A DNA stretch of 64,000 bases from contig NZ_LR134336.1 in assembly GCF_900637025.1 (NCBI RefSeq), forward strand, positions 1,584,501-1,648,500, in the 5' to 3' direction. This document shows, in pieces, positions 5,201 through 51,923 of the stretch. The stretch comes from Streptococcus oralis ATCC 35037. GTDB lineage: Bacteria; Bacillota; Bacilli; Lactobacillales; Streptococcaceae. The notes beneath the pieces are model-generated. The model was not told the origin of the DNA, did no database searches, and saw only the letters and a list, made by a program, of their open reading frames with translations. A program made the position numbers and the translations under genes. The number at the start of each line of letters is the position of its first letter. Positions within the stretch are counted from its first letter, which is position 1.

Positions 5201-6882
5201 TTAGCATTTTGAATGTCTGTTACTTTAAAGTTATCCAACTGGAAGAGTTTATTGGCAAATTCTGCAGTATTCTTCACAGCTGCTTCCATGCCAGTATAGC
5301 TAACAAATTCACCAGTTGTAGTCAATGAAAGTTCAGCATTAGGCTCCGATTTGAAAATCAAACTTTGAGCACTTGGGCGACTCAAGTTTCCATCTTCATT
5401 CTTCTTTGATTCTGCTAAAGCCATAGCTGCCTTAATTTTGGCCTGCTCAGCTTCATAAGCTTGCAACTTAGCCGGATACTCAGCCAACTCTTTCTTATAT
5501 TTGGCAAGATCAGCTTCGTATTTAGCTAATTTTGCTTCATAGTCAGTTTTAGCCGCGGCATTCCGCTGCTTGATTTCTTCGTTTTCAGCTTGGAGCGCTG
5601 CATTTTTTGCCTTGTTGTCTTCAACAGCCTTCTCATAAGCTGTTTTAGCATCAGCATTTGCCTTTTGAACGCGAGCTAGTTCTGTCTGATAAGCCGCTAA
5701 CTTAGTTTGGTAGTCTGTTTCGTTAGCTGCATTCGCTTGTTTGACTGCTGCCAAGTCTTTTTCGTATTGTGCTATTTTAGCCTCATAAGTTGCCTTGGCT
5801 GTTTCATTTCGTTGTTTAATAGCTTCATTTTCAGCTTGGATAGCATTGTTTTTAGCTTTGTTTTCTTCAACAGCCTTTTCATAGGCTACTTTTGCATCAG
5901 AATTAGCCTTTTGAACACGTGCCAATTCTGTTTTATAAGCTGCTAATTTAGCTTGATAATCAGCATCATTATCCTCTTTAGCTTTCTTAATAGCTGCAAG
6001 GTCTGCTTCATACTGCTTCATCGCTGCTTCATAATTCGCTTTTGCAGTTTCATTACGCTGTTTAATCGCTTCATTTTCAGCTTTAAGCGCTTCGTTTTTC
6101 GCAGTGTTTTCTTTTACTGCTTTATCATAAGCCTCTTTAGCTTCAGCATTAGCTTTTTGTACTCGAGCTAATTCTGTCTGGTAAGCTGAAAGTTTATTTT
6201 GATAATCCTTTTGACTATCTTCATTTGCTTTTTTGACAGTTGCTAAATCTTTTTGATATTGTGCTAGCTTAGCCTCATATTCTGCTTTAGCTGTTGCATT
6301 AGCAGTGTTGATTTTTTCAACTTCTTCTTGATGACTTTTTAGATCTTTTTGGTACTTGTCATCCGCTGCTTTGTTTTCAGCATTGATTTTATCTGTTTCA
6401 GCCTGATGAGCTGCGACTTCCTTTTTATATGCTTCAGTTGTTGTCTTTACTTCTTCAGCCTGTTTAGCATAGTCGCTTTTAATTTCATCTTGTTTTTGAG
6501 CATTTTCTGTAGCAGTTGTGGCTGTTCCTTTGTCTTTTGTTTCATCTTGAACCACCTTAACTCCTGCAGATTTTGCATCAGCAACTGCTTTATCCAAATC
6601 AGCTGATGATACTTCTACTGGCAAAGCTGAGTCTTTAGAACCAGCCTTAGCTTGGCTTTCTTTGGCAACTTGGCTCATTTCACCCTGAGCTTCAGGTAGA
6701 TTTGTGGCTGGGTTCCCTGTAGTAGCTACCTCAACTGTACTTGTACTAGTTGTCTCTGTAACTTCATCAGCAAATACTGCTTTGTCTGCAAAAGCAATCA
6801 AAGCAGTTCCTAAAACAGCACCACACAAAGTTTTCGCAACTTTGCTTTTACGAAATCCATAGACTTCTTTTTTATTTTTCAT
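2239..6882 (-). CDS. Antigen I/II family LPXTG adhesin (SspA/SspB/SpaP type)
   Basis: 1547-residue wall-anchored adhesin. In order: a signal peptide with a [11 protein letters not shown] core; an Ala-rich heptad region (about 135-495) of roughly 82-residue repeats carrying the motif [13 protein letters not shown]; a variable GbpC/Spa-like lectin domain (about 510-830); a Pro-rich region (about 845-985) with three 39-residue repeats ([20 protein letters not shown] and so on); C-terminal isopeptide-type domains (about 990-1490); then LPQTG at about 1511, a hydrophobic span and a KRKEDESK tail. In this family the A and P regions form a long stalk that presents the V domain to salivary glycoproteins (gp340) or other bacteria. 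It lies between pgk and the glnR-linked membrane gene. Single gene with its own promoter and terminator. Which named paralogue (ssp, pas, spaP) cannot be told. Confidence 0.93.
3998..4348 (-). repeat. Three 117-bp proline-rich repeats in the adhesin
   Basis: Three tandem 39-codon units. The middle and distal copies are nearly identical at DNA level; the outer copies carry a few substitutions ([16 protein letters not shown]). They encode the P region of antigen I/II, and copy number could vary by slippage or recombination. Confidence 0.85.
5440..6480 (-). repeat. Ala-rich heptad repeats (A region)
   Basis: About three and a half copies of a ~246-bp unit (82 codons) with conserved blocks [27 protein letters not shown] and [12 protein letters not shown]. 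Forms the alpha-helical half of the antigen I/II stalk. The copies differ at many third positions, so the array is older than the P repeats. Confidence 0.8.
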
Positions 6883-10095: not shown

Positions 10096-13000
10096 TTAGT
10101 CTTCTCTCTTCTTTCCAGCAAGCAAGCCGTAGCCACTCATTAGTCCGAGGAGTCCCAGCGCTACTAGACTAGCATCTCTTGTCGCTCCCGTATTTGGAAG
10201 CTCTTTACTTACTTCTTCAATTTTTGCTGGCGTTGCTGAGAGCGCTTGATCCCTTGTTTGTGAGACTTGCTCTTCTTTCGTTCCTACTTCGACAATTTCT
10301 GGAAGAGCTTCCTTGAGAACCTCAGTAGAATGAAGGGTGCGTTTGCCCTGAGCATCAACTTCTACAAAGCGACGAACTTGGCCTTCAACGCCTGCTTGAA
10401 CTAGCTGGCGTTTGCCTTTGAGAAGGGCTGCATTTGGTCGTTCTTGACGTTCGAAGGAAACTGTTCCCTCTTCAACTTCCAGTTTCGGAGTTTCTAGAAC
10501 TAAATCTTTCACACCTTCAGCTGGTTGGTTGCTTGATAGAACTTTTGTTCCAACTTCGGTGATTTCTGGGATTGCTTCCTTGACTACCTCAGTCGAACGA
10601 AGAGTGCGTCTACCTTGGGTATCTACTGCTACAAAGTGGCGAACTTGACCTTCAACTCCAGCTTGCACAACACGGCGTTGTCCTTTGAGAAATTCGGAGT
10701 TTGGTCGCTCCTGACGTTCATAGGCTGTTGTTTCAGTTTCAATAACTAGTTCAGGGAGGGCCTCAACCGTCGGGGCCACTTCATTTGGATCCATGCTACC
10801 AACATGATGGCTTTCTTCTGCAGGAGCTAGTTTCTTATTCAGCTTTTCTTTCATTTCTGAAAAAGCTTGTGGAGTTGGCATCTCTGAAGCTAATAAAGTT
10901 TCTGCTTGTTCAATCAACTCAGCTTTAGGATCTTTTTCACGGACAGATTCGAGCAAACCTTCCAATTCTTCTCTAGCTGTCTGATAACGTTGATTTCCAT
11001 CCAAGTCCGCTCCAGCTTGTTTCAATTCATTCAAGGCTTTATTGACTTCTTCTTGACTGGCATCATGGTTTTCTGCTACAGCTTTCGCTACATTGAGCTT
11101 CTCTACTAGTGCTGCTTGTTTGTCCTCGCTTGAGAAGGTGTAGGCAAGGGTTGACTGACGGCCTTGGGCAGCAGTAATTTCTTGTTTGAGGTACTCGTCG
11201 TTGACAGCTGCTTTTGGAGAAACCAAGACATCGAACTCAGCTGTGTGTCCCTTGTAATGCAAGGTCAAGGTTTGTCGTCCAGTCTTTTGAGCATCGTAGC
11301 CTGTAATTTCAACACCTTGATCTGTAAAGGCATGGCTTTCTTCTGTCTCATCATCATAGAGAACGCCGAAGCGACCTTCTGCAAGATCCAGTTGATCTCC
11401 TACTAGATAGTCTGTTTTCGGTTTCTGAGTAATGTACAAGCCTGCTACTTCTTTCGGCTTCCCTTCATCTTGACCAGTCACTTGTACTTTTAAGTCACCA
11501 GTAACCGAAAGTCCAAGGTAGCTGACTGTGAGCTTTTGTTCCCCTTTTTGATGAGCGTCGTATCCAGAAACAGTCACACCTGAGTGAGTAAGGTTAATCA
11601 GCTCATCGGCTTGTCCCCCTTCGTACTGAACACGGAGGTTTCCGCCTCTGAGGTCAAGTTTTTCTCCCTCTTTGTAAACTATCTTCTTAGGTCCTTTTTC
11701 AAGGCTAACTGCAGCAATTTTTCTCTCATCCTGCGGAATCGCTACAGCCAAGGTGTTACTGATTTCTTTGCCAGGTAGTTGGGTACGATAGTAGAGGAGA
11801 GTTGGTTGCTTGTCAAAGCCCAATGGTGCTGTTGCCAAGTCGCCTCCAGTTTCAGACTTCAAGGTTGCAATTGGTGTTTGTGAATCTGCCTTGTCGTAAA
11901 CGGTGATAGTTGCACCCGCTGGAACATCAGAGAAACCAAGTTGAACTTGGTGGTTTCCAAGTGAACGGGCAGCTACCTTAGCCATTGGAATATTTTGACT
12001 TTCTGTGTCCAAGGTTTCGTACATCTTCCAGTTGTAGATACGAATGGCCTTCCAAGGTGTCCCATTATCTGAAGTGATAACTTTTAGGCGCCAGTCTTGG
12101 GCAGTGATTGGTTTGTCAAGAGTGATATCTGTCACGTGTGCTTTGTTGCCACGGACTTCCTTAGCTAGTTTCCACTCACCATCTGTATCCTTGTAGTAAA
12201 GATCAAAGTCCTTGGTGTTCATCAAACCATCGTTGACAGACTCACCACCAGCTCCCGCATGATCCATGACCCATCTAACAACGGTACGTGACTTGGTCAA
12301 ACGAATATCCACACTACCGCTCAACTGAGCTGAAGACCACTTGTCTGACAGACTTGTAATCGTACCATTCAACATGCCTTCGATGCCTTCCCCGCCTTCA
12401 GTATTCGGGAAAGTGCTACCAATAACCTTTGCACCTGGAACGATATTTTCAGCTAAAGGTCTTGGAAGAGTCGTATCCTGAACTGTCATCCCCCAGTTAA
12501 AGGATGCCGTCGCAGCTTCGGAACGAAGGCCATTTTTACCAACTGCAACGACTTTCAGTTCCTGAGTCGTACCAGTCGCATTAGCAGAACGGCTAACTTT
12601 TGGCAAGTAGATGGTTGAAGCAGATGATCCTGTCAACAAACGCCAGTTATCTCCATCTTTTTCGTAGACTTCATAGAAATCTGCATCTTGGTTACCCGCA
12701 AACTGGACCACTGCTTCAGCTTCTTGGGCATTTTTAAGAGATTGTTTCACCACAGATAGCCCCGTCGGTGCCTGTGGTGCTTGGTGATTGTCCGTGATAG
12801 TTAATTGTCCTAGGTTGAACTGATAATCTTTTACAGCACCTTCATGTTCGAAGAAGAGTTTGACTGCATAGATGGTTTTACCTGCTAGTGAGCTAAGGTC
12901 AAATTCTTCATTCTTCCAGTCATCAGAGAGAGTCAGTTCTTTCCATGCAGCTGCATCCTCAAATTTGTAGTCTGGAGTCGTAGAGAAGGCCATATAAACT

Positions 13001-14820
13001 TTAGAGCCTTTTCCTCCCTTGTGGGCAACACGAAGTTTGGTTTTCTCTGTTACTTCTAGTTTGGTAGAATACAAATTCACATCCTGGTCCGTCTTACCAG
13101 CTACATCGCCTGAGAATTTAAGGGAGTTTCCTCCATTATAGGCATCTGTAAAGTCATATTCTGCACGAAGTTTTTCCCCTGTTGAAGTCTGCCACCAGCG
13201 CCATGTTGGCAAGACACCAGAAACAGAACGGTAGTTCCACTCAGAATCCTTAGAAACTTTGCCGTCTACAAACCATTTTCTACCATGACCTGTATTAAAG
13301 GAGGTCGTGAAGGTTCGACCTACTGCTGGTGTACGGTCAGCAACTAAATTGGCAATTCCATACCACTCTTTATCTGCTGGTTTTTGAGCCGTTGGATCTC
13401 CTTGGTAACCTGTAAAGAAGATGTCTTCGTTCTTGTGGTAGTCTTCGCCTGTTTTTCCTAGACTGGTAATCGTATCTGGTGCAAAAAGTCCAAGTGACAA
13501 ACGCAACTTGCCTTTTTCATCTAAGAGGGCATCCCATTTGACTTTGGTCTTATAAGAACCACCTTGTTGCAATTCCAAGCCTGCAAAGACATCATATTGA
13601 CTACGCTCTAGCCATTTGGCCATCTCTACGGAGTGGTCATTCTTTTCCTTGTTCCAGTTGAAATTGGCAAAGAATTGATCTGCAGGGACTTTGTCACCTT
13701 CTTTTTGCATGAACTGGTAGTTGTAATCACCTAGACCATCTTCGTGGTAACGACCGTATTTGTAGGTCATGGCATCGTACCAAGCATACTTGATCGGGTG
13801 GTTGACTTTGGCTGCGTATTCTTTTGTATAGAGCATGAATTGGCGCATTTTTTCACCAAGAGGTGCTACCAATTCCCCCGTTGTTTCCTGATTGATGAAA
13901 TAGCCATCAAAGCCATAGTACTTAGCGAGATCAACGAGTTTGCGTGCAATTGGGAATGTGCCATCCTCATCTTGTTTCAAGGCAGCGGCAAATTTCTCTT
14001 GGTCAGCAATACTGTTTGACCAGTTGAAAAAGAGTGTTCCATAAACGGGAACTCCGTTGCGGTGACCGGCATCAATGACATCTGGAGTTGGAACTAGACC
14101 TTCCCAGAAGACCATTGAATCCAAGTATTGCCAGTAGTCAAAAGCATAGGCCTTGAATTCTTCTCCACCAACAGAAGCGTGGTCTTTGGCCTTTGAGTTG
14201 GTGTTTGCTAGCGCCTGAACCTTGGCTCTTCTGCTTGCTTTTTCGTTAACCAACTGGCCTCTATGGCGCTTGGCGAGTTCAACTGATGAACGGTTAATGG
14301 GATCATCCTCACGCGCACCCGGTTCCCATTTTAATAAATCTTCCCAAGTATCAAATTTGATTTCTTTTGGTCGGAGACTCTTTTCCTCATTTTTAGGAAC
14401 GTCTGCTAGAGTCGGTTTGTCGGCTTTCTTCTCAGCCACTTGAGGAGCTTCCTCTGGTTTGACTTCTTCTTTTTCAGTTGGTTGAGCAGGTTTTTCAGCT
14501 TTATCTGCCGGAGCGGGTTTTGCCTCTTCTTTTTCATTGACCAAATCCGTTATTGCTGGAGTGTTTTCTGAAATTGGTTGCTCAGCTACTTTGTTCTCTG
14601 TTTCCTCTAATTGTTTTTCAAGGGCTGCAGTATCTGGATTAGCTGTTTCACTAGCTCTTGTAGCTTGGGCGCTCGTATTTGCAGCTGTTTCAGGGACTGC
14701 GACTTGTTCGGCAAGAGCTGGGCTCGCAAATAGAACTGAACCAATCATCAAGGAACAAGCTCCGATTGACAGCTTACGAATACTGTAACGGCAACGTTTT
14801 TCAAAAAATAGATCTTTCAT
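10096..14820 (-). CDS. endoD: Wall-anchored endo-beta-N-acetylglucosaminidase (GH85, EndoD-like)
   Basis: 1574-residue surface enzyme expected to cut the chitobiose core of N-linked host glycans. YSIRK signal peptide (CRYSIRKLSIGACSLMIGSVLF); low-complexity linker to about 150; GH85 catalytic domain from about 205 to 520 with FDGYFINQETTG, where Asn310 and Glu312 match the Asn/Glu catalytic pair of EndoD; beta-rich carbohydrate-binding-like regions (about 550-700, 780-940); two Big_3-like domains (about 1060-1230, KIVYKEGEKLDLRGG type); a helical stretch; two G5-like repeats (about 1355-1545); LPNTG and a KKRED tail. As I recall, S. pneumoniae has an EndoD gene next to pgk as well. Strong upstream promoter with cre-like sites. 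Confidence 0.95.
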   Translation of the reverse strand: MKDLFFEKRCRYSIRKLSIGACSLMIGSVLFASPALAEQVAVPETAANTSAQATRASETANPDTAALEKQLEETENKVAEQPISENTPAITDLVNEKEEAKPAPADKAEKPAQPTEKEEVKPEEAPQVAEKKADKPTLADVPKNEEKSLRPKEIKFDTWEDLLKWEPGAREDDPINRSSVELAKRHRGQLVNEKASRRAKVQALANTNSKAKDHASVGGEEFKAYAFDYWQYLDSMVFWEGLVPTPDVIDAGHRNGVPVYGTLFFNWSNSIADQEKFAAALKQDEDGTFPIARKLVDLAKYYGFDGYFINQETTGELVAPLGEKMRQFMLYTKEYAAKVNHPIKYAWYDAMTYKYGRYHEDGLGDYNYQFMQKEGDKVPADQFFANFNWNKEKNDHSVEMAKWLERSQYDVFAGLELQQGGSYKTKVKWDALLDEKGKLRLSLGLFAPDTITSLGKTGEDYHKNEDIFFTGYQGDPTAQKPADKEWYGIANLVADRTPAVGRTFTTSFNTGHGRKWFVDGKVSKDSEWNYRSVSGVLPTWRWWQTSTGEKLRAEYDFTDAYNGGNSLKFSGDVAGKTDQDVNLYSTKLEVTEKTKLRVAHKGGKGSKVYMAFSTTPDYKFEDAAAWKELTLSDDWKNEEFDLSSLAGKTIYAVKLFFEHEGAVKDYQFNLGQLTITDNHQAPQAPTGLSVVKQSLKNAQEAEAVVQFAGNQDADFYEVYEKDGDNWRLLTGSSASTIYLPKVSRSANATGTTQELKVVAVGKNGLRSEAATASFNWGMTVQDTTLPRPLAENIVPGAKVIGSTFPNTEGGEGIEGMLNGTITSLSDKWSSAQLSGSVDIRLTKSRTVVRWVMDHAGAGGESVNDGLMNTKDFDLYYKDTDGEWKLAKEVRGNKAHVTDITLDKPITAQDWRLKVITSDNGTPWKAIRIYNWKMYETLDTESQNIPMAKVAARSLGNHQVQLGFSDVPAGATITVYDKADSQTPIATLKSETGGDLATAPLGFDKQPTLLYYRTQLPGKEISNTLAVAIPQDERKIAAVSLEKGPKKIVYKEGEKLDLRGGNLRVQYEGGQADELINLTHSGVTVSGYDAHQKGEQKLTVSYLGLSVTGDLKVQVTGQDEGKPKEVAGLYITQKPKTDYLVGDQLDLAEGRFGVLYDDETEESHAFTDQGVEITGYDAQKTGRQTLTLHYKGHTAEFDVLVSPKAAVNDEYLKQEITAAQGRQSTLAYTFSSEDKQAALVEKLNVAKAVAENHDASQEEVNKALNELKQAGADLDGNQRYQTAREELEGLLESVREKDPKAELIEQAETLLASEMPTPQAFSEMKEKLNKKLAPAEESHHVGSMDPNEVAPTVEALPELVIETETTAYERQERPNSEFLKGQRRVVQAGVEGQVRHFVAVDTQGRRTLRSTEVVKEAIPEITEVGTKVLSSNQPAEGVKDLVLETPKLEVEEGTVSFERQERPNAALLKGKRQLVQAGVEGQVRRFVEVDAQGKRTLHSTEVLKEALPEIVEVGTKEEQVSQTRDQALSATPAKIEEVSKELPNTGATRDASLVALGLLGLMSGYGLLAGKKRED

Positions 14821-14841: not shown

Positions 14842-14940
14842 AAAGTAAGCGCTTTACTTTTTGATAAAAAGTAACTGTTCTCAGTGCACACCACCAGAAC
14901 AGGATCATCTTCATTTTATCCTATATGAAAGCGATGTCAA
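14842..14940 (-). promoter_or_regulatory. endoD promoter with two cre-like boxes
   Basis: Leftward -35 TTGACA (14940-14935), 16-bp spacer, -10 TAAAAT (14918-14913). TGAAAGCGATGTCA (14926-14939) lies between and over these hexamers and fits the CcpA cre consensus TGWAARCGNTNNCA. A second, palindromic cre-like element AAGTAAGCGCTTTACTT (14843-14859) sits in the leader just before the ribosome site AGGAGG. Two sites suggest strong carbon catabolite repression. Confidence 0.78.
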
Positions 14941-33257: not shown

Positions 33258-33351
33258 TTGACAAATGCTAAGCGACCATTAGAATGGGAGGTGAGGAGAT
33301 AAATAGAAACAAATTAAACGAAACTGCTTTATAAAATGTAAGCGGTTTCTA
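33258..33351 (+). promoter_or_regulatory. GH95 fucosidase promoter and cre site
   Basis: TTGACA (33258-33263), 16 bp, TAGAAT (33280-33285). TGTAAGCGGTTTCT (33337-33350) fits the cre consensus and lies downstream in the leader, where CcpA could block transcription. The GGAGG ribosome site follows. Confidence 0.72.
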
Positions 33352-33370: not shown

Positions 33371-36300
33371 ATGAAAAAACACTTTTGGGAGAAATCCTGT
33401 CGCTATAGCATCCGCAAGCTGACGGTTGGGACTGCTTCTGTTTTACTGGGGGCTGTTTTTCTAGTCAACCATACTGTAGCCGCAGACAGTGTTGAGGTCA
33501 AGCAAACTGAACCAACCTCTGTCGAAGCTATCACTAAGCCTGATAGTGAACCCAAAGCTGCTGAAGCTACTGAAACTACAAAACCATCTCTAGCCGAGAG
33601 TCCAGTAGTTTCCAAAAGCAAGTCAGCTGAGGAGACTAAGACGACAAATAGTCAAGCTAGTGAAGAAGCCATTGTAGAAGCTAAAGAAAATAAGGAACCT
33701 GAAAAAGCAGATCAGCCTGTGACAAAGCAAGAAAACTATCAACTCAACTACGATCAACCAACAGCTCCCTCCTATGATGGATGGGAAAAACAAGCCCTTC
33801 CTGTCGGAAATGGAGAGATGGGAGCCAAGGTTTTCGGACTCATTGGCGAAGAGAGAATCCAGTACAACGAAAAGACCCTCTGGTCAGGAGGACCACAACC
33901 TGATAGCACCGACTATAACGGAGGAAACTACAAGGATCGCTACAAGGTCTTAGCAGAGATACGTAAAGCCCTCGAAGCTGGTGACCGCCAAAAAGCAAAA
34001 CAGCTAGCTGAACAAAATCTAGTTGGACCAAACAACGCCCAGTATGGACGTTACCTAGCCTTTGGAGATATCTTCATGGTCTTTAATAACCAGAAGAAAG
34101 GACTAGATACTGTAACTGATTATCATCGTAATCTAGACATCACCGAAGCCACTACGACCACTTCTTACACCCAAGATGGGACGACCTTCAAACGCGAAAC
34201 CTTCTCCAGTTATCCTGATGATGTCACTGTAACCCACTTGACCAAAAAAGGAAACAAGACACTTGACTTTACCCTTTGGAACAGCTTGACAGAAGACTTG
34301 CTTGCTAATGGCAACTACTCTTGGGAATATTCCAACTATAAGAATGGTCATGTCACTACAGATGCAAACGGAATCCTTCTAAAGGGAACTGTCAAAGATA
34401 ACGGCCTCCAATTTGCATCCTATCTAGGAATTAAAACGGACGGAAAGGTGACTGTTCAGGACGAAACTCTGACCGTTACAGGCGCAAGTTATGCAACCCT
34501 CTATCTCAGTGCCAAGACTAACTTTGCTCAGAATCCAAAAACCAACTATCGAAAAGACATTGACCTCGAAAAAACAGTTAAAGGGATTGTCGAAGCAGCT
34601 AAGTCCAAAGACTACGAGACACTTAAAAAGGCCCATATCAAGGACTATCAAAGTCTCTTTAACCGCGTTAAACTAAATCTAGGCGGAACCAAGACTACTC
34701 AAACGACAAAAGAGGCCCTTCAAGGCTATAACCCAGAAAAAGGGCAAAAATTGGAAGAACTCTTCTTCCAATATGGCCGATATCTACTCATCAGTTCGTC
34801 TCGTGATCGGACAGATGCTCTTCCTGCCAACCTCCAAGGAGTCTGGAACGCTGTAGACAATCCACCTTGGAACGCTGACTACCACCTCAATGTCAATTTG
34901 CAAATGAACTATTGGCCAGCTTACATGAGCAACCTTGCTGAAACTGCCAAGCCAATGATCAATTACATTGATGACATGCGCTATTATGGCCGTATCGCTG
35001 CCAAGGAATACGCAGGTATCGAATCCAAAGACGGACAAGAAAATGGTTGGCTGGTCCACACTCAGGCGACACCATTTGGCTGGACTACTCCAGGCTGGAA
35101 TTACTATTGGGGTTGGTCGCCAGCTGCTAATGCCTGGATGATGCAGAACGTTTATGACTACTACAAATTCACCAAGGATGAGACCTATCTCAAAGAAAAG
35201 ATCTATCCTATGTTGAAAGAGACTGCCAAGTTCTGGAACTCCTTCTTGCACTATGACCAGGCCAGTGACCGTTGGGTGTCTTCTCCATCCTACTCACCAG
35301 AACACGGTACCATCACCATCGGAAATACCTTTGACCAATCGCTAGTCTGGCAGCTATTCCACGACTACATGGAAGTTGCCAACCATCTGAAAGTCGACCA
35401 AGACTTAGTCACAGAGGTCAAGGCTAAATTTGACAAACTTAAACCACTTCACATCAATAAAGAGGGCCGTATCAAAGAATGGTACGAAGAAGACAGTCCG
35501 CAATTCACCAATGAAGGGATTGAAAATCACCACCGCCACGTTTCCCATCTAGTTGGTCTCTTCCCAGGTACGCTCTTTAGCAAGGACCAGGCTGAATACC
35601 TAGAGGCTGCGCGTGCTACCTTGAATCACCGTGGAGATGGGGGGACTGGTTGGTCTAAGGCCAATAAAATCAACCTCTGGGCTCGTCTGCTGGACGGTAA
35701 CCGTGCCCATCGCTTACTCGCTGAACAGCTCAAGTACTCAACTCTAGAAAACCTTTGGGATACCCACGCGCCTTTCCAAATCGACGGAAACTTTGGAGCG
35801 ACCAGTGGGATGGCAGAAATGCTTCTCCAATCACACACTGGCTATATTGCACCATTGCCAGCCCTTCCAGATGCATGGAAAGACGGTCAAGTTTCTGGCT
35901 TGGTTGCCCGTGGTAACTTTGAAGTCAGCATGAAGTGGAAAGATAAAAACCTGCAAAGCTTGTCCTTCCTTTCAAATGTCGGTGGAGACCTGGTTGTAGA
36001 TTATCCAAATATCGAAGCTAGCCAAATCAAGGTCAATGGCAAACCAGTCAAGGCAACGATCCTTAAAGATAATCGTATCCAGCTTGCAACGCAAAAAGGT
36101 GACGTCATTACCTTTGAACATTTCCCTGGCCGTGTGACCAGTCTGACAGCCGTTCGACAAAATGGAGTCACTGCCGAACTTACCTTCAACCAAGTAGAAG
36201 GCGCTACCCACTATGTCATCCAAAGACAAGTGAAAGACGAAACTGGCCAAACCTCTGCGACCAGAGAATTTGTAACCAATCAAACCCACTTTATTGACCG

Positions 36301-38494
36301 ATCACTAAATCCTCAACTCGCCTATACTTATACTGTCAAGGCTATGCTGGGCGAAGTTTCCACACAAGTTTCTGAACAGGCCACTGTCGAAACCTATAGC
36401 GAGTTGATGGACGACCGAGATAGCCGCATCCAGTACGGAGCTGCCTTTGGAAACTGGGCAGACTCAGAATTATTTGGAGGAACAGAGAAATTTGCTGACC
36501 TTTCAAAAGGAGACTACACAGACGAAGATCTCACTGCTACCATTCCTTTCACTGGCGTTGGTATCGAAATCTATGGACTGAAATCGTCTGAACTAGGTCT
36601 TGCCACTGCTAAAATTGATGGCAAAGAAGTCGGGGAGCTTGACTTCCATACTGCTGGAGCAACTGAAAAAGGTAGTCTCATTGGTCGCTTCGCAGGACTA
36701 TCTGACGGACCTCACACATTGACTCTTAGTGTTAAACGTGAGCACAAAGGACGTGGTAGTGAGCGCTCGAAAATTTCATTAGACTACTTCAAGATCCTAG
36801 CAGGAACAGGCAATACGATTGAAAAAATAGATGATCGCGATTCGCGCATCCAGTATGGTGCCCAGTTTAAGGACTGGTCTGACCCTGAACTCTACGGAGG
36901 TACGGAAAAATACGCTGATATTAACAACAGCGACTCTAGTGCAGCTTCAGAAGCTCAGGCAACTATTTCCTTTACAGGGACGGGTATTCGTATCTTTGGC
37001 TTAAAGAGCCTCGCTCTTGGACGAGCACGTGTTACACTAGATGGCAAAGAAATGCCAAGTCTAGACTTCTACACTTCAGGTGCAACTGAAAAGAGAGCTT
37101 TTATTGGTGAATTTACAAACCTTACTGACGGTCCGCACACCCTGACACTACAAGTTGACCCAGATTCGCCAGAAGGTCGCAAGAAAATCTCTCTAGACTC
37201 CTTTGATATCATCAAAGCCCCTGCTGTTGGTATAGATAGCCCGAGCATTGCGCCTCTTAAGGAAAATGACAAAACCATTTCCTTAAGCCTACCAGCTGGA
37301 GATTGGGAAGCCATCGCAGTGACCTTCCCAGGTGTCAAAAATCCTCTAGTTTTGCGTAAGGTGGATGAAACACATCTAGTTACAAGTGGAGATCAGACTA
37401 TCCTATCAATCCAAGACAATCAAGTTCAAATCCCAATCCCTGAAGAAACCGATCGCAAAGCTGGAAATGCCATTGAAGCTTATACCATTCAAGGAAATAC
37501 CACAAGCAGCCCTATCGTAGCCGTCTTTACTAAAAAGGATGAGAAAAAGGTTGACGAGAGTCAGCCAACTACAAGAAAGGGGGACGAACCAGCTCCTACT
37601 GTTGAAATTCCGGAATACACCGATCCTATCGGAACGGCAGGGCAAGAGGAACCACCTACAGTGACAATTCCTGAATACACTAAACCTATCGGGACTGCAG
37701 GGCAAGAAGTGCCACCCACTGTAGAAATGCCTGAATACACCGAACCTATCGGAACGGCGGGGCAAGAAGAGTCTCCTACTGTAGAAAAGCCTGAATACAC
37801 CGAACCGATCGGAACAGCAGGTCAAGAGGAAGCACCTACTGTTGAAAAACCTGAATACACCAAACCTATCGGAACTAGCGGAGATCAGGCCGCTCCAAGC
37901 CTTAGCCTTCCTGACTATCCAGTTCAAGTCTTAAAAGATAAGGAGACTGGAGTAGAAATCATCGGTGGAGCCAGCGACTTAGAAGGAATTTCTCACGTTT
38001 CTAGCCGACGTGTCCTAGCTCAAGAACTCTTTGGCAAGACCTATGACGCTTACGACCTACAACTTAAAAATCCAACAGATCATAGCGTACAGCCAAAAGG
38101 CGCTGTCTTAGTTCGCTTGCCTGTTTCAGCTAGCGTAGAAAACATCTACTACATCACTCCAACCAAGGAGTTGCAAGTCCTTGATTTCACCGTTCGAGAC
38201 GGAAAGGTAGAATTCATCACTAATCATTTCAGTACCTATGCTGTCGTCTATCAAGCAACTGGAACAAGCTCTAACACAGAGGAAAAACCAAGTACTTCAG
38301 ATGCAGAAACCTCAGCACACGAGGCTGAACAATTTCCAGCTAGTCCGAGCCTTGCTAAAGCTGGAAATCATTCTCCTAAAGAAGAACTTCCAGCAACAGG
38401 AGAAGTGTCCAACCCACTCCTCTTCTTAGCAGGACTCAGCCTAGCCCTTACAGCCACTTTTATGTTAAAAGGGAGAAAGGATGACTCCAACTAA
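33371..38494 (+). CDS. Wall-anchored alpha-L-fucosidase (GH95)
   Basis: 1707 residues. YSIRK signal (CRYSIRKLTVGTASVLLGA), acidic linker, GH95 catalytic region about 130-865 (YNEKTLWSGGPQPDSTDYNGG). Asn507 and Asn509 in HLNVNLQMNYW, Glu644 in SPEHG and Asp805 in QIDGNFG correspond in order and spacing to the catalytic residues described for Bifidobacterium AfcA. Next come an FnIII-like region (about 920-1008), two related beta modules (about 1012-1147, 1152-1282), five 20-residue repeats with PEYT-PIGTAGQE (about 1408-1505), a conserved surface-protein domain (about 1515-1630), and LPATG at about 1673. GH95 enzymes remove alpha-1,2-fucose, for example from H antigens. Single gene with its own promoter; terminator shared with mraY. 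Confidence 0.93.
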   Translation: MKKHFWEKSCRYSIRKLTVGTASVLLGAVFLVNHTVAADSVEVKQTEPTSVEAITKPDSEPKAAEATETTKPSLAESPVVSKSKSAEETKTTNSQASEEAIVEAKENKEPEKADQPVTKQENYQLNYDQPTAPSYDGWEKQALPVGNGEMGAKVFGLIGEERIQYNEKTLWSGGPQPDSTDYNGGNYKDRYKVLAEIRKALEAGDRQKAKQLAEQNLVGPNNAQYGRYLAFGDIFMVFNNQKKGLDTVTDYHRNLDITEATTTTSYTQDGTTFKRETFSSYPDDVTVTHLTKKGNKTLDFTLWNSLTEDLLANGNYSWEYSNYKNGHVTTDANGILLKGTVKDNGLQFASYLGIKTDGKVTVQDETLTVTGASYATLYLSAKTNFAQNPKTNYRKDIDLEKTVKGIVEAAKSKDYETLKKAHIKDYQSLFNRVKLNLGGTKTTQTTKEALQGYNPEKGQKLEELFFQYGRYLLISSSRDRTDALPANLQGVWNAVDNPPWNADYHLNVNLQMNYWPAYMSNLAETAKPMINYIDDMRYYGRIAAKEYAGIESKDGQENGWLVHTQATPFGWTTPGWNYYWGWSPAANAWMMQNVYDYYKFTKDETYLKEKIYPMLKETAKFWNSFLHYDQASDRWVSSPSYSPEHGTITIGNTFDQSLVWQLFHDYMEVANHLKVDQDLVTEVKAKFDKLKPLHINKEGRIKEWYEEDSPQFTNEGIENHHRHVSHLVGLFPGTLFSKDQAEYLEAARATLNHRGDGGTGWSKANKINLWARLLDGNRAHRLLAEQLKYSTLENLWDTHAPFQIDGNFGATSGMAEMLLQSHTGYIAPLPALPDAWKDGQVSGLVARGNFEVSMKWKDKNLQSLSFLSNVGGDLVVDYPNIEASQIKVNGKPVKATILKDNRIQLATQKGDVITFEHFPGRVTSLTAVRQNGVTAELTFNQVEGATHYVIQRQVKDETGQTSATREFVTNQTHFIDRSLNPQLAYTYTVKAMLGEVSTQVSEQATVETYSELMDDRDSRIQYGAAFGNWADSELFGGTEKFADLSKGDYTDEDLTATIPFTGVGIEIYGLKSSELGLATAKIDGKEVGELDFHTAGATEKGSLIGRFAGLSDGPHTLTLSVKREHKGRGSERSKISLDYFKILAGTGNTIEKIDDRDSRIQYGAQFKDWSDPELYGGTEKYADINNSDSSAASEAQATISFTGTGIRIFGLKSLALGRARVTLDGKEMPSLDFYTSGATEKRAFIGEFTNLTDGPHTLTLQVDPDSPEGRKKISLDSFDIIKAPAVGIDSPSIAPLKENDKTISLSLPAGDWEAIAVTFPGVKNPLVLRKVDETHLVTSGDQTILSIQDNQVQIPIPEETDRKAGNAIEAYTIQGNTTSSPIVAVFTKKDEKKVDESQPTTRKGDEPAPTVEIPEYTDPIGTAGQEEPPTVTIPEYTKPIGTAGQEVPPTVEMPEYTEPIGTAGQEESPTVEKPEYTEPIGTAGQEEAPTVEKPEYTKPIGTSGDQAAPSLSLPDYPVQVLKDKETGVEIIGGASDLEGISHVSSRRVLAQELFGKTYDAYDLQLKNPTDHSVQPKGAVLVRLPVSASVENIYYITPTKELQVLDFTVRDGKVEFITNHFSTYAVVYQATGTSSNTEEKPSTSDAETSAHEAEQFPASPSLAKAGNHSPKEELPATGEVSNPLLFLAGLSLALTATFMLKGRKDDSN
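37590..37890 (+). repeat. Five 60-bp repeats in the GH95 gene
   Basis: Five tandem 20-codon units of the form P-T-V-E-x-P-E-Y-T-x-P-I-G-T-A-G-Q-E with a strict 60-bp period. A flexible spacer that could change length by recombination. Confidence 0.85.
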
Positions 38495-45525: not shown

Positions 45526-45635
45526 TTGCAATTCTTTCATTAATTTAGTATATTTGTTATATTAAAAGTTTTCAGTCATTTTAAGGGAGAAATGACCTTT
45601 TAAATTTTTTTATCTTAAAATGAAAGCGCTTTATA
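45526..45635 (+). promoter_or_regulatory. Promoter and cre of the protease-fucosidase gene
   Basis: TTGCAA, 17 bp, TATATT (45526-45554). TGAAAGCGCTTTAT (45621-45634) matches cre except for one position and lies in the leader, as in the other two glycosidase genes. Confidence 0.65.
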
Positions 45636-45755: not shown

Positions 45756-48700
45756 ATGAATCGATACCTTTTTGAAAAAGGGCAAACATTTAGCATTCGG
45801 AAGTTGACTGTAGGTGTGGCATCTGTTATCGTCGGACTGGCATTTTTTGCTTCTGGAACCGTGCGTGCAGACGAAACGTCTCCTGCCACAACATCCAATT
45901 TAGATCAGCAAATGAAACAAGTAGCAGATATAGAAGAGACCAAGGTTGAACCAGTCAAAGAAGAAGGCCGTGTAGAAGCTGAAAAACAAGAAACACCTGC
46001 TGCAGATACCAACAGTGCTGACTTGCTCCCTGAAGACATTCAGGACCGTGCCTATCCAGACACACCTGTCAAAGAACTCGATACGACTACTATCGTTGAC
46101 CAGAAAGCTAGTCCAAAAGTAGAAACTAAGAGCATTCTAAAGGACAAGGAAGAAGCTCCAAAAGAAGCTGAGAACGGAAACCGTGCCATCATTAACGGTG
46201 GACAAGACCTCAAACACATCAACTACGAGGGACAACCTGCTACTGCTGCTACTATGGTTTACAGCACTTACAATGCAGGAGAACAACGCTACCTCGTTTC
46301 AGGCTCAGGTATCTTTGTAGCACCTAACCTGATCCTTACCGTTGCTCATAACTTCCTAGAAGCCAATAAAGAAACTAGCGAAGGTCACATTCGTGGTGGA
46401 AAATCTGCCCAGTTTTACTATAACGTTGGTTCAAACAGCGAAAAGAAAAACTCACTGCCATCTTCTGGGACTACGGTTTTATTCAGAGAAAAAGACATAC
46501 ATTTCTGGAACAAGAAAGAGTTTGGAAAAGGCTATAAGAATGACCTTGCTCTTGTAGAAGCTCCTATTCCTCTTCCGATTGCTAGTCCAAACAAAGCAGC
46601 AACCTTTGCGCCTTTAGCGGAGCACAAGACACATCAGCCGGGAGAAGCCATCAGTACGATTGGCTACCCAACTGACTCGAGCTCAAAAGAACTGAAACAA
46701 CCTATCCTAGCTGGTCAGCTTTACAAGGCAGATGGGACCATCCGATCTGTTGAGTCCTATGATGATAAGGGAACAACCGGTATTACCTACAAAACCACTT
46801 CTGTATCTGGTTTGTCTGGTGGCGGGATTGTCGATAGCCAAGGAAAAGTTCTGGGGGTTCACCAACACGGAACCGTTGACAATGGTGTGGCTGAAAAGGA
46901 TCGCTTTGGTGGCGGACTCGTCCTTTCACCTGAACAACTGAAATGGGTGAAGGACATGATTGCCAAGTATGGTGTGAAAGGCTGGTACCAAGGTGATAAC
47001 GGAAATCGTTACTACTTTACCGATGAAGGACGTATGCTTCGGAACGAAACAGCTGTTATCGGAAGCAACGAATATTCCTTCAACCAAGATGGGATTGCTA
47101 CCTTGACCAAGGGAGTTGAATACGGTCGTGTGGTTATTCAACACGAAGACGAAGAAGGAAATCCTGTCAAAGATAATGACACCTTTATCGAACAGACAGC
47201 TGTTGATTCGCCATTTGACTATAATTTCAAAAAAGAAATTGAGAAGACGGACTTCTATCAGAAGAATAAAGACAAATACGAAATTGTATCCATTGATGGC
47301 GTAGCAGTTAATAAACAGCTAAAAGATACTTGGACTGAAGATTACAATGTTGTCAGCAAAGCGCCTGCCGGTACACGTGTCATCAAGGTGGTCTATAAAG
47401 TCAACAAAGGCTCCTTCAAAGTTTACTACCGTCAAAAAGGAACCACTACTGAACTAGCGGAAGCGACAGTTGATAACAATGAAGGTCAAGAGTATGACGT
47501 TTCCTTTGTCAACACCTTCCATGCAAAAGACATTGCTGGCTACCGTCCAGTCAAAACCAGCCTGGAAGCAAGGATCCAGCATAAAGGTGTGAATGAGGTC
47601 GTCTTTGAATACGAGCCAGTCGCTGATACAGCCAATCCAACGACACCGACTCCACCAGTCGCTCATCCAGAAGATAAAGAAACCGAGATTGGCAATCATG
47701 GACCTCTTCCAAGCAAGGCTCAACTCGATTACCACAAGGAAGAATTGGCAGCCTTCATCCACTATGGAATGAACACTTATACCAATTCTGAATGGGGAAA
47801 TGGGAAAGAAGACCCCCGGTACTTCAATCCAACCAACTTGGATACTGACCAGTGGATTCGCACTCTGAAGGAAACGGGCTTCAAACGAACCATTATGGTT
47901 GTTAAACACCACGATGGTTTCGTTGCTTACCCATCTAAGTACACCAACCATACCGTAGCTGCTAGCCCATGGAAAGATGGAAAGGGTGACCTTCTCGAAG
48001 AAGTTTCCAAGTCTGCTAGCAAGTATGACATGAATATGGGTGTTTACCTTTCACCATGGGATGCCAACCATCCTAAATACCATGTCGCAACCGAAAAAGA
48101 ATACAACCAATACTATCTCAACCAGCTGAAAGAAATCCTTGGTAATCCGAAATACGGTAACAAAGGGAAATTTATCGAAGTTTGGATGGACGGTGCACGT
48201 GGTAGCGGTGCCCAAAAAGTAACCTATACCTTTGATGAATGGTTCAAATACATCAAAGAAGCCGAAGGAGATATCGCTATCTTCTCTGCTCAACCAACAA
48301 GCGTTCGCTGGATCGGAAATGAACGGGGAATCGCAGGCGACCCTGTATGGCATAAAGTTAAAAGAGCCAACATCACAGATGATGTAAAAAATGAATACCT
48401 CAACCATGGTGACCCAGATGGCGATATGTACTCTGTAGGGGAAGCTGATGTTTCGATCCGTTCAGGCTGGTTCTATCATGACAATCAACAACCGAAATCA
48501 CTCAAAGAGTTGATGGACATCTACTTCAAGTCTGTTGGTCGTGGAACCCCACTCCTTCTCAATATTCCACCAAATAAAGAAGGAAAATTCGCAGATGCAG
48601 ATGTGGCTCGCTTGAAGGAATTCAAGGCAACCCTAGACCAAATGTATGCGACTGACTTTGCCAAAGGCGCGACTGTAACAGCAAGTTCTACTCGTCAAAA

Positions 48701-51700
48701 CCACCTTTACAAGGAAAGCCACCTCACAGACGGTAAAGATGACACCAGCTGGGCGCTCTCAAATGATGCCACAACTGGAAGCTTTACAGTCGATTTGGGG
48801 CAAAAGAGACGCTTTGACGTCGTTGAACTCAAGGAAGATATCGCCAAAGGTCAACGTATCTCTGGTTTCAAGATTGAAGTTGAAATCAACGGACGTTGGG
48901 TGACATACGGCGAAGGTTCGACCGTTGGTTACCGTCGCTTGGTTCAAGGCAAGCCTGTAGAAGCACAAAAAATCCGTGTAACCATCACTGGTGCTCAAGC
49001 AACTCCAATCTTGACCAACTTCTCAGTCTACAAGACACCAAGCAGCATTGAAAAGACTGATGGCTACCCTCTTGGACTTGAATACCACTCAAACACAACG
49101 GCAGATACAGCCGGAACAACTTGGTACAATGAATCTGAAGGTGTTCGTGGCACTTCTATGTGGACCAATCAAAAAGATGCCAAAGTAAGCTATACCTTCA
49201 CAGGAACCAAGGCCTATGTCGTCTCTACAGTCGACCCAGGTCATGGAGAAATGTCTGTCTACGTTGATGGTCAAAAGGTTGCCGATGTCCAAACTAAGAA
49301 TGCTAGCCGTAAACGCAGCCAAAAAGTCTTTGAGACAGGCGATTTAGCACCAGGCCAACACACTATTACCCTCGTGAACAAAACAGGCGAACCAATTGCT
49401 ACAGAAGGGATCTACACCCTAAACAATGATAGCAAAGGGATGTTTGAACTTGAGTCTACTAACTACGAAGTCGAAAAAGGAAAACCAGTCACTGTTAAAA
49501 TTAAACGTGTTGGTGGAAGCAAGGGAGCTGCTACTGTTCGCTTCATCACAGAACCTGGAACTGGGGTTCACGGTAAAGTTTACCAAGATACAACTCAAGA
49601 TGTGACTTTTGAAGATGGAGAAACAGAAAAGACTGTGACCATCCCAACGATTGACTTTACTGAACAAGCCGACTCTGTCTTTGACTTCAAAGCCAAGCTC
49701 ACTTCTGTCACTGATGGTGCCCTGCTCGGTTTTGCTACCGATGCAACCATCCAAGTGATGAAAGCTGAATTGCTGATCAAGGACCAAACAAGTTATGATG
49801 ACCAAGCTAGTCAGTTGGATTACAGTCCTGGCTGGCACCATGAAACCAATTCGGCAGACAAATACCAAAAGACGGAGTCTTGGGCTTCCTTTGGTCGCTT
49901 AACTGATGAGCAAAAGAAAAAGACAACTGTCACAGCCTACTTCTACGGTACTGGACTTGATATCAAGGGCTATGTCGATCCAAATCATGGTATCTACAAG
50001 GTATTCCTCGACGGCAAAGAAGTTCCTTACCAAGAGGGTATGGGAAATGCTTCGACTATTGATGGTAAGAAATACTTTAGCGGTCACGCTGCCCAACGCC
50101 AAGGCAATCAAACTCTGGTTAGCCTAAAAGGTCTGGACGAAAACTTGCACGCAGTCACCCTTCAACTCGATCCTGATCGAAACGATTTGTCTCGAAATAT
50201 CGGTATCCAGGTAGACCAATTCATCACTCGTGGCGAAGGCAGTGAACTCTACAGTAAGGCAGATATCATCCAGTCTATCTCTAAATGGAAAGATGATCTG
50301 TCAAACTTTGATCCAGCAGGTTTGAAAAATACAGCTACTGCACGTCAAGCTTTCCAAGCAAATCTAGAAAAATTGAGAAACCAACTCAGTGCTGATGCAG
50401 TGGATGTTCAAGAAGTCATGTTGACTGTCAGCGCCTTACAAGATATCCTGTCCAAGGACGAGAACTATCAAAGAGGGCAAGAGGAACCTAGTCCAGATCA
50501 ACCTGAACAGCCTGAAGAACCTTCTAAACCTGATCAACCTGAACAACCTGCTCAACCAAAACAACCGGAAATTGAGTACGATAAGGCTATGGACAGCTTG
50601 GCAAAAGCTATCGAGAAAAAAGTCGCTGAGCTTGGATCCAACAAGGAAGCTAAGAAGCAATTGTTAGCAATTGCTGACCAAGCCATTGCTGCCATCCAAG
50701 AAGCTAAGACTCAGGAAGCAGTCAACAAAGCACTTGAAACTGCTCTCGAACAAATCAGCAAGCTCGAAGCAGCTCAGCCTGAAAAACCAGCGCAACCGGA
50801 AAATCCTGCTCAGCCTGAGAAACCTGTTCAGCCTGAAAAGCCAGCGCAACCGGAAAAACCTGCTCAACCGGAAAAGCCAGCTCAACCAGAAACTCCAGTT
50901 CAACCTGAGAAACCTGCTCAGCCTGAAAAGCCGACTCAACCGGAAAAGCCAGCTCAACCTGAAACTCCAGCGCAACCTGAGAAACCTGCTCAACCTGAGA
51001 AACCGGCGCAACCTGAGAAACCGGCGCAACCGGAAACTCCAGCGCAACCGGAAACTCCGGCTCAGCCTGAAAAACCGGCGCAACCGGAAAAACCGGCGCA
51101 ACCGGAAAAACCGGCGCAACCGGAAAAACCTGCTCAACCTGAGAAACCTGCTGAGACTGAGAAACCTGCTCAACCTGAGAAACCTGCTCAGCCTGAAACT
51201 CCAGCTCAACCTGAGAAACCAGCGCAACCGGAAAAGCCAACTCAACCTGAGAAACCTGCTCAGCCTGAAACTCCAGCTCAACCGGAAAAGCCGGCTGAAC
51301 CTGAGAAACCTGCTCAGCCTGAGAAACCAATTACGTCTTCAAGTCCTGAGGAAGGGGTTAAAGACCTTGTCTTTACACTTCCAAGCTTGGAAATCGTCAA
51401 TAAGGTCGTACCGTTCAAGACTATTCGTCACGAAAACCCACAATTAGACAAAGGAAAAGAGCATGTTCTATCAGAAGGAAAAGACGGTCTTTTAGTTGAG
51501 TATGTTGAAGTGGATGGTGACAATCGCAAGGTTCTCCAAACAGAAGCAACTCCAGCTCAAGATCGAGTGATTGAGGTAGGTAGCAAACAAAGCTCAGTTG
51601 GTACAGAAGCGCCACCAGTTGTGACTCTTCCTGAGTATGTTCTACCAAGAGAGACTGAAAAACCGACTCCAGCCGTAACAGATAATTCATCAGCAAAAGA

Positions 51701-51851
51701 TGAAAAAGCTCCTGTTACAGCTACGGTCAAAGAAGACAAGGAAAGAGAACTCCCTGCAACTGGGGAACAAGAAGCAACTGCTTTCCTCTTCTTGGCAGCC
51801 ATTACTTCTATCTTGTCTCTCCTCATCTTCCAAAAGAATTTCAAAGACTAA
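45756..51851 (+). CDS. Wall-anchored trypsin-like protease fused to GH29 alpha-L-fucosidase
   Basis: 2031 residues. YSIRK-type signal (FSIRKLTVGVASVIVGLAFF). Serine-protease domain about 140-405 with a His198, Asp263, Ser354 triad (LTVAHNF, KNDLALV, SGLSGGGI). Two cell-wall-binding-like repeats (about 407-451, GWYQGDNGNRYYFTDEGRML). MucBP-like region (about 452-622). GH29 domain (about 645-955) with likely nucleophile Asp812 in FIEVWMDGARG; F5/8C or CBM32-like domain (about 967-1095); a beta module (1102-1222), Calx-beta-like (1229-1335), and another module (1345-1497). Then helical regions, about 30 six-residue AQPEKP-type repeats, a G5-like domain, and LPATG near 2000. GH29 cuts alpha-1,3/1,4 fucose; the protease may act on host proteins or other surface proteins. 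One frame, no frameshift seen. Confidence 0.9.
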   Translation: MNRYLFEKGQTFSIRKLTVGVASVIVGLAFFASGTVRADETSPATTSNLDQQMKQVADIEETKVEPVKEEGRVEAEKQETPAADTNSADLLPEDIQDRAYPDTPVKELDTTTIVDQKASPKVETKSILKDKEEAPKEAENGNRAIINGGQDLKHINYEGQPATAATMVYSTYNAGEQRYLVSGSGIFVAPNLILTVAHNFLEANKETSEGHIRGGKSAQFYYNVGSNSEKKNSLPSSGTTVLFREKDIHFWNKKEFGKGYKNDLALVEAPIPLPIASPNKAATFAPLAEHKTHQPGEAISTIGYPTDSSSKELKQPILAGQLYKADGTIRSVESYDDKGTTGITYKTTSVSGLSGGGIVDSQGKVLGVHQHGTVDNGVAEKDRFGGGLVLSPEQLKWVKDMIAKYGVKGWYQGDNGNRYYFTDEGRMLRNETAVIGSNEYSFNQDGIATLTKGVEYGRVVIQHEDEEGNPVKDNDTFIEQTAVDSPFDYNFKKEIEKTDFYQKNKDKYEIVSIDGVAVNKQLKDTWTEDYNVVSKAPAGTRVIKVVYKVNKGSFKVYYRQKGTTTELAEATVDNNEGQEYDVSFVNTFHAKDIAGYRPVKTSLEARIQHKGVNEVVFEYEPVADTANPTTPTPPVAHPEDKETEIGNHGPLPSKAQLDYHKEELAAFIHYGMNTYTNSEWGNGKEDPRYFNPTNLDTDQWIRTLKETGFKRTIMVVKHHDGFVAYPSKYTNHTVAASPWKDGKGDLLEEVSKSASKYDMNMGVYLSPWDANHPKYHVATEKEYNQYYLNQLKEILGNPKYGNKGKFIEVWMDGARGSGAQKVTYTFDEWFKYIKEAEGDIAIFSAQPTSVRWIGNERGIAGDPVWHKVKRANITDDVKNEYLNHGDPDGDMYSVGEADVSIRSGWFYHDNQQPKSLKELMDIYFKSVGRGTPLLLNIPPNKEGKFADADVARLKEFKATLDQMYATDFAKGATVTASSTRQNHLYKESHLTDGKDDTSWALSNDATTGSFTVDLGQKRRFDVVELKEDIAKGQRISGFKIEVEINGRWVTYGEGSTVGYRRLVQGKPVEAQKIRVTITGAQATPILTNFSVYKTPSSIEKTDGYPLGLEYHSNTTADTAGTTWYNESEGVRGTSMWTNQKDAKVSYTFTGTKAYVVSTVDPGHGEMSVYVDGQKVADVQTKNASRKRSQKVFETGDLAPGQHTITLVNKTGEPIATEGIYTLNNDSKGMFELESTNYEVEKGKPVTVKIKRVGGSKGAATVRFITEPGTGVHGKVYQDTTQDVTFEDGETEKTVTIPTIDFTEQADSVFDFKAKLTSVTDGALLGFATDATIQVMKAELLIKDQTSYDDQASQLDYSPGWHHETNSADKYQKTESWASFGRLTDEQKKKTTVTAYFYGTGLDIKGYVDPNHGIYKVFLDGKEVPYQEGMGNASTIDGKKYFSGHAAQRQGNQTLVSLKGLDENLHAVTLQLDPDRNDLSRNIGIQVDQFITRGEGSELYSKADIIQSISKWKDDLSNFDPAGLKNTATARQAFQANLEKLRNQLSADAVDVQEVMLTVSALQDILSKDENYQRGQEEPSPDQPEQPEEPSKPDQPEQPAQPKQPEIEYDKAMDSLAKAIEKKVAELGSNKEAKKQLLAIADQAIAAIQEAKTQEAVNKALETALEQISKLEAAQPEKPAQPENPAQPEKPVQPEKPAQPEKPAQPEKPAQPETPVQPEKPAQPEKPTQPEKPAQPETPAQPEKPAQPEKPAQPEKPAQPETPAQPETPAQPEKPAQPEKPAQPEKPAQPEKPAQPEKPAETEKPAQPEKPAQPETPAQPEKPAQPEKPTQPEKPAQPETPAQPEKPAEPEKPAQPEKPITSSSPEEGVKDLVFTLPSLEIVNKVVPFKTIRHENPQLDKGKEHVLSEGKDGLLVEYVEVDGDNRKVLQTEATPAQDRVIEVGSKQSSVGTEAPPVVTLPEYVLPRETEKPTPAVTDNSSAKDEKAPVTATVKEDKERELPATGEQEATAFLFLAAITSILSLLIFQKNFKD
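50773..51330 (+). repeat. Imperfect 18-bp repeats (AQPEKP spacer)
   Basis: About 30 tandem six-codon units (AQPEKP, with AQPETP, VQPEKP, TQPEKP and AETEKP variants). They form the wall-spanning segment and are prone to copy-number change. The long open frames on the opposite strand here are artefacts. Confidence 0.9.
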
Positions 51852-51896: not shown

Positions 51897-51923
51897 GAGA
51901 AGACCAGTTGGTCTTCTCTTTTT
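51897..51923 (+). terminator. Terminator of the protease-fucosidase gene
   Basis: Stem GAGAAGACC / GGTCTTCTC with an AGTT loop, then TTTTT. Confidence 0.88.

Follow-up and report, generated by a model that had tools for sequence, protein, structure and literature searches.

A wall-anchored Streptococcus oralis GH29 fucosidase carrying a V8-like protease domain with a predicted activation site

A surface protein of Streptococcus oralis ATCC 35037 carries a V8-like serine protease domain and a GH29 fucosidase domain on one sortase-anchored chain. Its gene occupies positions 45756–51851 (+) of the 64,000-nucleotide stretch of contig NZ_LR134336.1 analysed here (positions 1,584,501 to 1,648,500; hereafter the window). 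We read the protein, with a probability of roughly 0.58, as an enzyme directed at host glycoproteins, in which a GH29-B fucosidase and modules that would hold mucin-type glycans are combined with a V8-like zymogen, activated at Arg143|Ala144 and cutting after acidic residues. The likely activation site, together with a census of the partners of this protease module, is probably what is new here.

The frame comprises 2031 codons with no internal stop, as claimed in a preliminary description of this DNA, and the catalytic residues named there (His198, Asp263 and Ser354 for the protease, Asp812 for the fucosidase) are exact in the translation. The domain search proposed at that time gave, in Pfam order, YSIRK, Trypsin_2, a weak choline-binding-like repeat, Alpha_L_fucos, F5/8 type C (F5/8C), a CE2_N-like domain, Calx-beta, G5 and a Gram-positive anchor. 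Both enzymatic domains scored above their cut-offs: Trypsin_2 over residues 183–368 (50.8 bits, cut-off 27.6) and Alpha_L_fucos (PF01120) over residues 687–958 (100.4 bits, cut-off 25.2). The modules earlier called carbohydrate-binding-module (CBM)-like and Calx-beta-like correspond to F5_F8_type_C (974–1079) and Calx-beta (1224–1334), while the "wall-binding-like repeats" reduce to a single weak choline-binding-like repeat (407–445, under the cut-off), so that the kind of element stands and the plural does not. Anchoring by a YSIRK/LPXTG route is indicated by matches above cut-off to PF04650, PF00746 and TIGR01168 and by the LPATG motif at residue 1999; TIGR01167 fell marginally below its cut-off (15.7 versus 15.9). 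The model of the linker (residues 404–646) was too poor to be used, with a predicted local distance difference test score (pLDDT) of 58.9. MucBP (PF06458) was matched in 11 of 16 linker sequences at E ≤ 1, the best at 1.8e-4. Pfam and fold comparison together support the earlier claim that one wall-anchored protein combines a protease fold with a GH29 fucosidase. Where database sources name the protein, they call it "alpha-L-fucosidase" and, once, "Beta-N-acetylhexosaminidase precursor".

The predicted fold of the protease domain is chymotrypsin-like, closest to the glutamyl endopeptidases (V8-like, S1B), and the His-Asp-Ser triad of S1B peptidases is present in several alignments. An S6-like protease, the other option raised earlier, is not borne out: no S6 (IgA-protease type) family appeared among 13 Pfam matches at E ≤ 1. 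The protein also lacks a Pfam match to M26, which removes an M26 IgA1 protease as its identity, and SpGH101 was rejected on a match to NF040533 limited to residues 1–403 (127.5 bits against a cut-off of 2900) and no GH101 Pfam match. His369 is invariant in alignments A1 and A2, aligns with the GIH of SplB and is predicted to line the S1 pocket, where we take this histidine to be the determinant of a preference for acidic P1 residues. The domain, here termed TrpA, is predicted to cut after acidic residues once trimmed. All 95 module copies used for a tree retain the triad and S1 histidine, a set in which the His is present by construction and the Asp or S1 His partly through the search patterns; a search without motif selection found 30 loci, and all 30 have an RA[IV]INGG-type motif, the triad and the S1 histidine. 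V8, Esp and the Bacillus intermedius glutamyl endopeptidase are 17–18% identical to the window domain and, to our knowledge, stand alone, without a fused glycosidase or wall anchor.

Three lines of evidence agree within one residue on a likely activation site at Arg143|Ala144. Arg143 and Ala144 are invariant in 39 of 39 sequences, and RA[IV]INGG is present in 121 of 121 proteins (the window protein and the best 120 of 494 matches). Homologues with two protease domains provide the second line. Their predicted signal-peptidase cut, read from the −3,−1 rule, follows Ala or Val at −3 and Ala at −1 and directly precedes [DA]V[IV][QK]GG in 17 of 17 loci, and in an alignment of five sequences Ala144 falls on the first residue past their signal peptide. 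Finally, when the predicted model is superposed on solved structures, residue 145 coincides with residue 1 in three mature glutamyl endopeptidases and with residue 67 in Esp; in an Esp form that carries one pro-peptide residue, residue 66 is matched by residue 144. Because of the invariant Arg143 junction, the 17 homologous predicted cuts and the V8-like N-termini superposed within one residue, we read TrpA as a zymogen. The disordered pro-region would keep it inactive until cleavage at Arg143|Ala144, or no more than one residue away, creates a new N-terminus that completes the S1 pocket.

The closest solved structure to the GH29 part is that of SpGH29 from Streptococcus pneumoniae (6org; 608 bits over residues 645–1095). 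Compared with 6org, two SpGH29 structure sequences (6orf and 6or4) have N in place of D in WMDG and Q in place of E in WIGNERG, and the corresponding columns are Asp812 and Glu856 of the window protein, invariant in 39 of 39 and 40 of 40 sequences, respectively. From this match and the identical catalytic residues, we infer a GH29-B domain that removes α-1,3/4-linked fucose. This is the linkage specificity summarised for SpGH29 in PMC9937060, and an S. mitis enzyme is listed as GH29-B in PMC11189522. SpGH29 (PDB 6or4, 6orf, 6org, 6orh) resembles the window protein in its GH29 and F5/8C part and its catalytic Asp/Glu; unlike the 2031-residue protein, the solved constructs span about 452 residues. 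The window's own genome also encodes a standalone GH29 paralogue, 60% identical over 451 residues, in which Pfam detected no protease, signal peptide or anchor. On the wall, the GH29-B domain would strip fucose from host glycoproteins while the MucBP-like and F5/8C modules may hold the enzyme on mucin-type glycans, and activated TrpA would cut after acidic residues, most likely in backbone bared by deglycosylation. The two activities may act in synergy, possibly stripping glycoproteins in one step, as first suggested.

The same architecture recurs in other genomes. Some part of the protein was matched in 123 of 147 Streptococcus genomes (two candidates per genome scored, counts taken from result rows), and a colinear match in one frame from residue 1 to at least residue 1570 was found in 32, the window's own included. 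A scan of named species by protease alignment, in which the best 80 of 103 relatives were kept, yielded 77 loci: 39 of the GH29 class, 17 two-protease, 20 GH101 (one of them, L118, a 629-residue frame) and one M26 IgA1 protease (L124). The fusion lies in one frame in 38 of the 39 GH29-class loci, ten of which end at contig ends, and this recurrence rules out chance as well as an assembly chimera. In the exception, L089 (7903–9345), the frame stops at 481 residues, after the protease part. Species labels comprise S. oralis, S. mitis, S. infantis, S. pseudopneumoniae, S. taonis, S. shenyangsis and other Streptococcus. Across the class, 6 of 398 genomes match at E ≤ 1e-15, all from one genus of 145, and a two-protease type occurs in Gemella haemolysans (L098, with G5, at a contig end). 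As far as searched, the module appears confined to streptococci of this kind and Gemella.

The pairing with GH29, earlier called unusual, is one of several fusions, found mostly in Mitis-group streptococci; the description was only half right, as the protease module is also carried by GH101, GH33, M26, choline-binding and plain anchored proteins. Modules fall into two branches: TrpA, at the head of the GH29 protein and as the first domain of two-protease proteins, and TrpB, the second domain of the latter and the head of GH101 and M26 enzymes. Two-protease heads occur with choline-binding repeats (L040, L099) or an anchor only (L041, L055), and the M26 partner of L124 was identified by Pfam. 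Two-protease heads with a sialidase are seen at L042 (1337–7057) and L110 (9857–15742) by Pfam, both with an LPXTG anchor, and at L111 by blastp. One 2598-residue frame from Streptococcus sp. DD10 (L066, 9542–17335) joins protease, GH29 and a GH33-type sialidase; Pfam found no anchor in it. The window's own genome holds a GH101 O-glycanase with N-terminal TrpB (L047 980–7402; C1:284979–291401). Each partner class groups as one in the tree of 95 modules, with support of 100/99 for GH101, 100/100 and 100/95 for the A and B domains of two-protease proteins, 100/100 for M26 and a weak 74/61 for GH29; according to a warning from the tree program, some long branches may have been joined falsely. This grouping does not support the idea that one protease module has been shuffled promiscuously. 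Since each class groups once (GH29 weakly), the partner pattern reads as a few stable captures. The Trp label needs four changes on a GH29 tree that is not relied on here, as the "no protease" labels of L049 (partly masked) and L050 (frame running past the segment end) are unsafe and L053 is a 722-residue remnant. A single frame of at least 3186 residues at L048 (23–9580) joins BgaA-like CBM domains to GH29 and a GH2 β-galactosidase.

Ratios of nonsynonymous to synonymous divergence (dN/dS) were calculated by the Nei-Gojobori method over 741 pairs, excluding L089 and L039, with recombinant tracts kept in and only pairs with dS of 0.05–1.5 retained (332 for TrpA, 608 for GH29, 427 for the pro-region and 367 for the linker). 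The medians were 0.073 for TrpA, 0.091 for the linker, 0.031 for GH29 and 0.29 for the pro-region (residues 41–139). TrpA is under purifying selection. Compared with L061–L064, of which L062 and L063 are labelled S. oralis, the window protein is 78–81% identical in the protease and linker and 99.7% identical in GH29. At the DNA level, identity to L063 is 61–80% over codons ~161–560 and 88–98% over codons 1–160 and 561–1400, with a second dip to 79–87% in parts after codon 1400. The dS of this pair, 1.66 for TrpA versus 0.41 for GH29, is a mark of allele exchange. At L039, the same gene lies between the same two neighbours (a glutathione peroxidase and an alpha-amylase-family gene) and retains GH29 and the anchor without the protease block; among the 39 named loci, 11 have the upstream neighbour and none has the downstream neighbour at high identity. 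The fucosidase behaves as the fixed part and the protease block as a head that can be exchanged or dispensed with.

Four observations weigh against our reading. The N-terminal register falls in a low-confidence region of the model (pLDDT below 50 for residues 101–148, the stretch holding NR143-AIINGG), and four further basic residues in region 41–164 are also invariant. The nearest solved relative of the protease domain, GhTrp, a trypsin-like domain of a Gemella IgA1 protease, was inactive on every substrate tried (PMC11970125, PMC9637739), and this inactive domain also retains the triad and S1 histidine.

An active domain might instead act mainly on its own protein or on surface proteins nearby, so that the fucosidase or other enzymes are set free from the wall, with host glycoproteins not its target. 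Its N-terminal place in large anchored enzymes that have long linkers would suit such a role, as would the occurrence of the GH29 module without the protease (L039, L052, L057), which marks the protease as an add-on. We nevertheless regard processing as unlikely, since by Pfam three of the scanned two-protease proteins (L040, L041 and L055) have no other enzyme to release, and L039 shows that an anchored fucosidase can lack the protease; self-processing as the sole role, also suggested earlier, is less likely on the same grounds.

It is a little less probable again that the S1 fold has been retired to a binding or spacer module without catalysis, which PMC11970125 allows for GhTrp. The inactivity of that domain in two studies, with its S1 pocket blocked (PMC11970125, PMC9637739), is in keeping with this, but retention of the triad and S1 histidine in every tree module and every motif-unselected locus would be unexpected for a pure spacer. 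GhTrp differs from the window domain in its partner (M26 rather than GH29) and its branch: it is a TrpB and lacks the Arg-AIINGG junction in the alignment, whereas the window domain is a TrpA that has it. A further reading, in which immune selection is the main reason for keeping the protease block, as a surface domain that can be exchanged and irrespective of its chemistry, is very improbable: the low identity of codons ~161–560 to L063 and the raised TrpA dS would fit, but dN/dS within the block is purifying rather than diversifying, and allele exchange is compatible with catalysis.

Related modules have been described. PMC11970125 reports the GhTrp structure and a pro-enzyme hypothesis, and in PMC9637739 the domain gave no help to IgA1 cleavage. 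PMC12211801 reports that SpGH101 and ZmpA of commensals have an additional S1B catalytic domain and describes Cbp33, a trypsin-like protein that binds choline; PMC6593409 reports new S. pseudopneumoniae choline-binding proteins that contain trypsin-like domains. The SpGH101 and ZmpA domains are peptidase modules of the same kind as that of the window protein, carried by surface enzymes of S. mitis and S. oralis, L047 being such a GH101; they differ in pairing TrpB with GH101 or M26, where the window protein pairs TrpA with GH29. "GH29" does not occur in the text of PMC12211801, and its accessible part mentions no activation site. We recognised no paper on a GH29-protease fusion in the literature searched, which lacked most subscription journals, and the accessible parts of PMC8592123, PMC11861894, PMC7846122, PMC12687362 and PMC10376253 hold nothing on the window protein.

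The trypsin-like domain of M26 IgA1 proteases was left without a function in PMC11970125 and PMC9637739, since no construct was active. Its TrpA relative predicts an exact start for such a domain in the TrpA branch, and the two-protease homologues are natural versions predicted to be trimmed at that residue. The zymogen idea thereby becomes testable, and bears on the lack of activity in the related domain. If TrpA is active, commensal streptococci would couple deglycosylation and proteolysis on one surface protein, which would matter for feeding on mucin, life in biofilms and escape from mucosal antibodies. As a speculation that we hold doubtful, Arg143|Ala144 could act as a sensor: Arg-cutting proteases from the host mucosa or plaque neighbours would switch on a wall-displayed protease of acidic P1 preference beside the fucosidase, confining backbone cutting to places where such proteases occur. 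The two-protease homologues, in which signal peptidase would do the trimming at this residue, would represent a constitutive form, and TrpA on GH29, GH29-GH33 and GH33 proteins would form one family of surface glycoprotein shredders with two activation modes.

Table 1. Features of the protease/GH29 surface-protein gene and its flanks, in window coordinates.
Feature	Residues	Position	Strand	Evidence or comment
Protease/GH29 surface-protein gene	2031 in all	45756..51851	+	ATG start; open reading frame call and translation
YSIRK signal peptide	1-38	45756..45869	+	PF04650 7-30; TIGR01168 1-40; cut after Ala38 is our reading
Variable pro-region	39-143	45870..46184	+	median dN/dS 0.29 for 41-139; pLDDT <50 for 101-148
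Predicted activation site	Arg143 then Ala144-Ile-Ile-Asn-Gly-Gly149	46182..46202	+	conservation, homologue signal-peptidase cut, superposition
V8-like (S1B) serine protease domain TrpA	144-405	46185..46970	+	
Catalytic His	198	46347..46349	+	alignments
Catalytic Asp	263	46542..46544	+	alignments
Catalytic Ser	354	46815..46817	+	alignments
Predicted S1-pocket His	369	46860..46862	+	invariant in alignments A1, A2; aligned with SplB GIH
Single choline-binding-like repeat	407-445	46974..47090	+	PF19127 below cut-off; E ≤1 in 16/16 linker sequences
MucBP-like domain	556-619	47421..47612	+	PF06458 below cut-off in window protein
GH29 catalytic domain	645-960	47688..48635	+	PF01120; SpGH29 6org 608 bits over 645-1095
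GH29 nucleophile Asp	812	48189..48191	+	aligned with 6orf/6or4 substituted residues
GH29 acid/base Glu	856	48321..48323	+	aligned with 6orf/6or4 substituted residues
F5/8 type C (CBM32-like) domain	974-1079	48675..48992	+	PF00754 52.7 bits
CE2_N-like beta-sandwich	1143-1214	49182..49397	+	PF17996 32.3 bits, cut-off 27.9
Calx-beta domain	1224-1334	49425..49757	+	PF03160 39.2 bits
PEKPAQ-type proline-rich repeats, putative wall-spanning stalk		50769..51335	+	translation
G5 domain	1881-1944	51396..51587	+	PF07501 34.6 bits
LPATG sortase motif	1999-2003	51750..51764	+	PF00746 20.2 bits, cut-off 20
Sigma-70-like promoter candidate		45526..45554	+	consensus scan only, 9/12 matches; 11 found vs 7.8 expected in scanned region
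cre-like site, 122-136 nt upstream of start codon		45620..45634	+	one mismatch to WTGNAANCGNWNNCW
Terminator-like hairpin 3′ of gene		51897..51918	+	9-pair stem then T run; pattern match only

L-fucose isomerase (PF07881) was not detected in the window's own genome in a search in which 3 of 14 controls were positive, in line with PMC6722419, which counts fucose uptake systems among those that all S. oralis strains, or nearly all, lack. Because no isomerase was detected, the removal of fucose is more likely to expose glycans to other glycosidases than to provide food for the cell. Upstream of the gene, the cre-like site is weak taken alone, as a one-mismatch consensus search returned 46 sites in the window against 31.8 expected; a 14-base query has a low expectation that is no test, being derived from the site itself. 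A like element lies 86–150 nt upstream in 38 of 39 related loci.

Other surface enzymes are encoded nearby. A wall-anchored GH95 fucosidase with a YSIRK signal (33371–38494, +) has an exact cre-consensus match upstream (33336–33350); with the GH29 gene about 7 kb away, the two would give both fucosidase types. A wall-anchored GH85 endo-β-N-acetylglucosaminidase (10096–14820, −) carries F5/8C, Big_3 and G5 domains and also has an exact cre-consensus match upstream (14925–14939). Elsewhere in the genome, three separate M26 metalloprotease genes lie within about 15 kb on the minus strand (G000 C1:1378029–1393329). The window further encodes an Antigen I/II type adhesin with a GbpC domain and LPXTG anchor (2239–6882, −).

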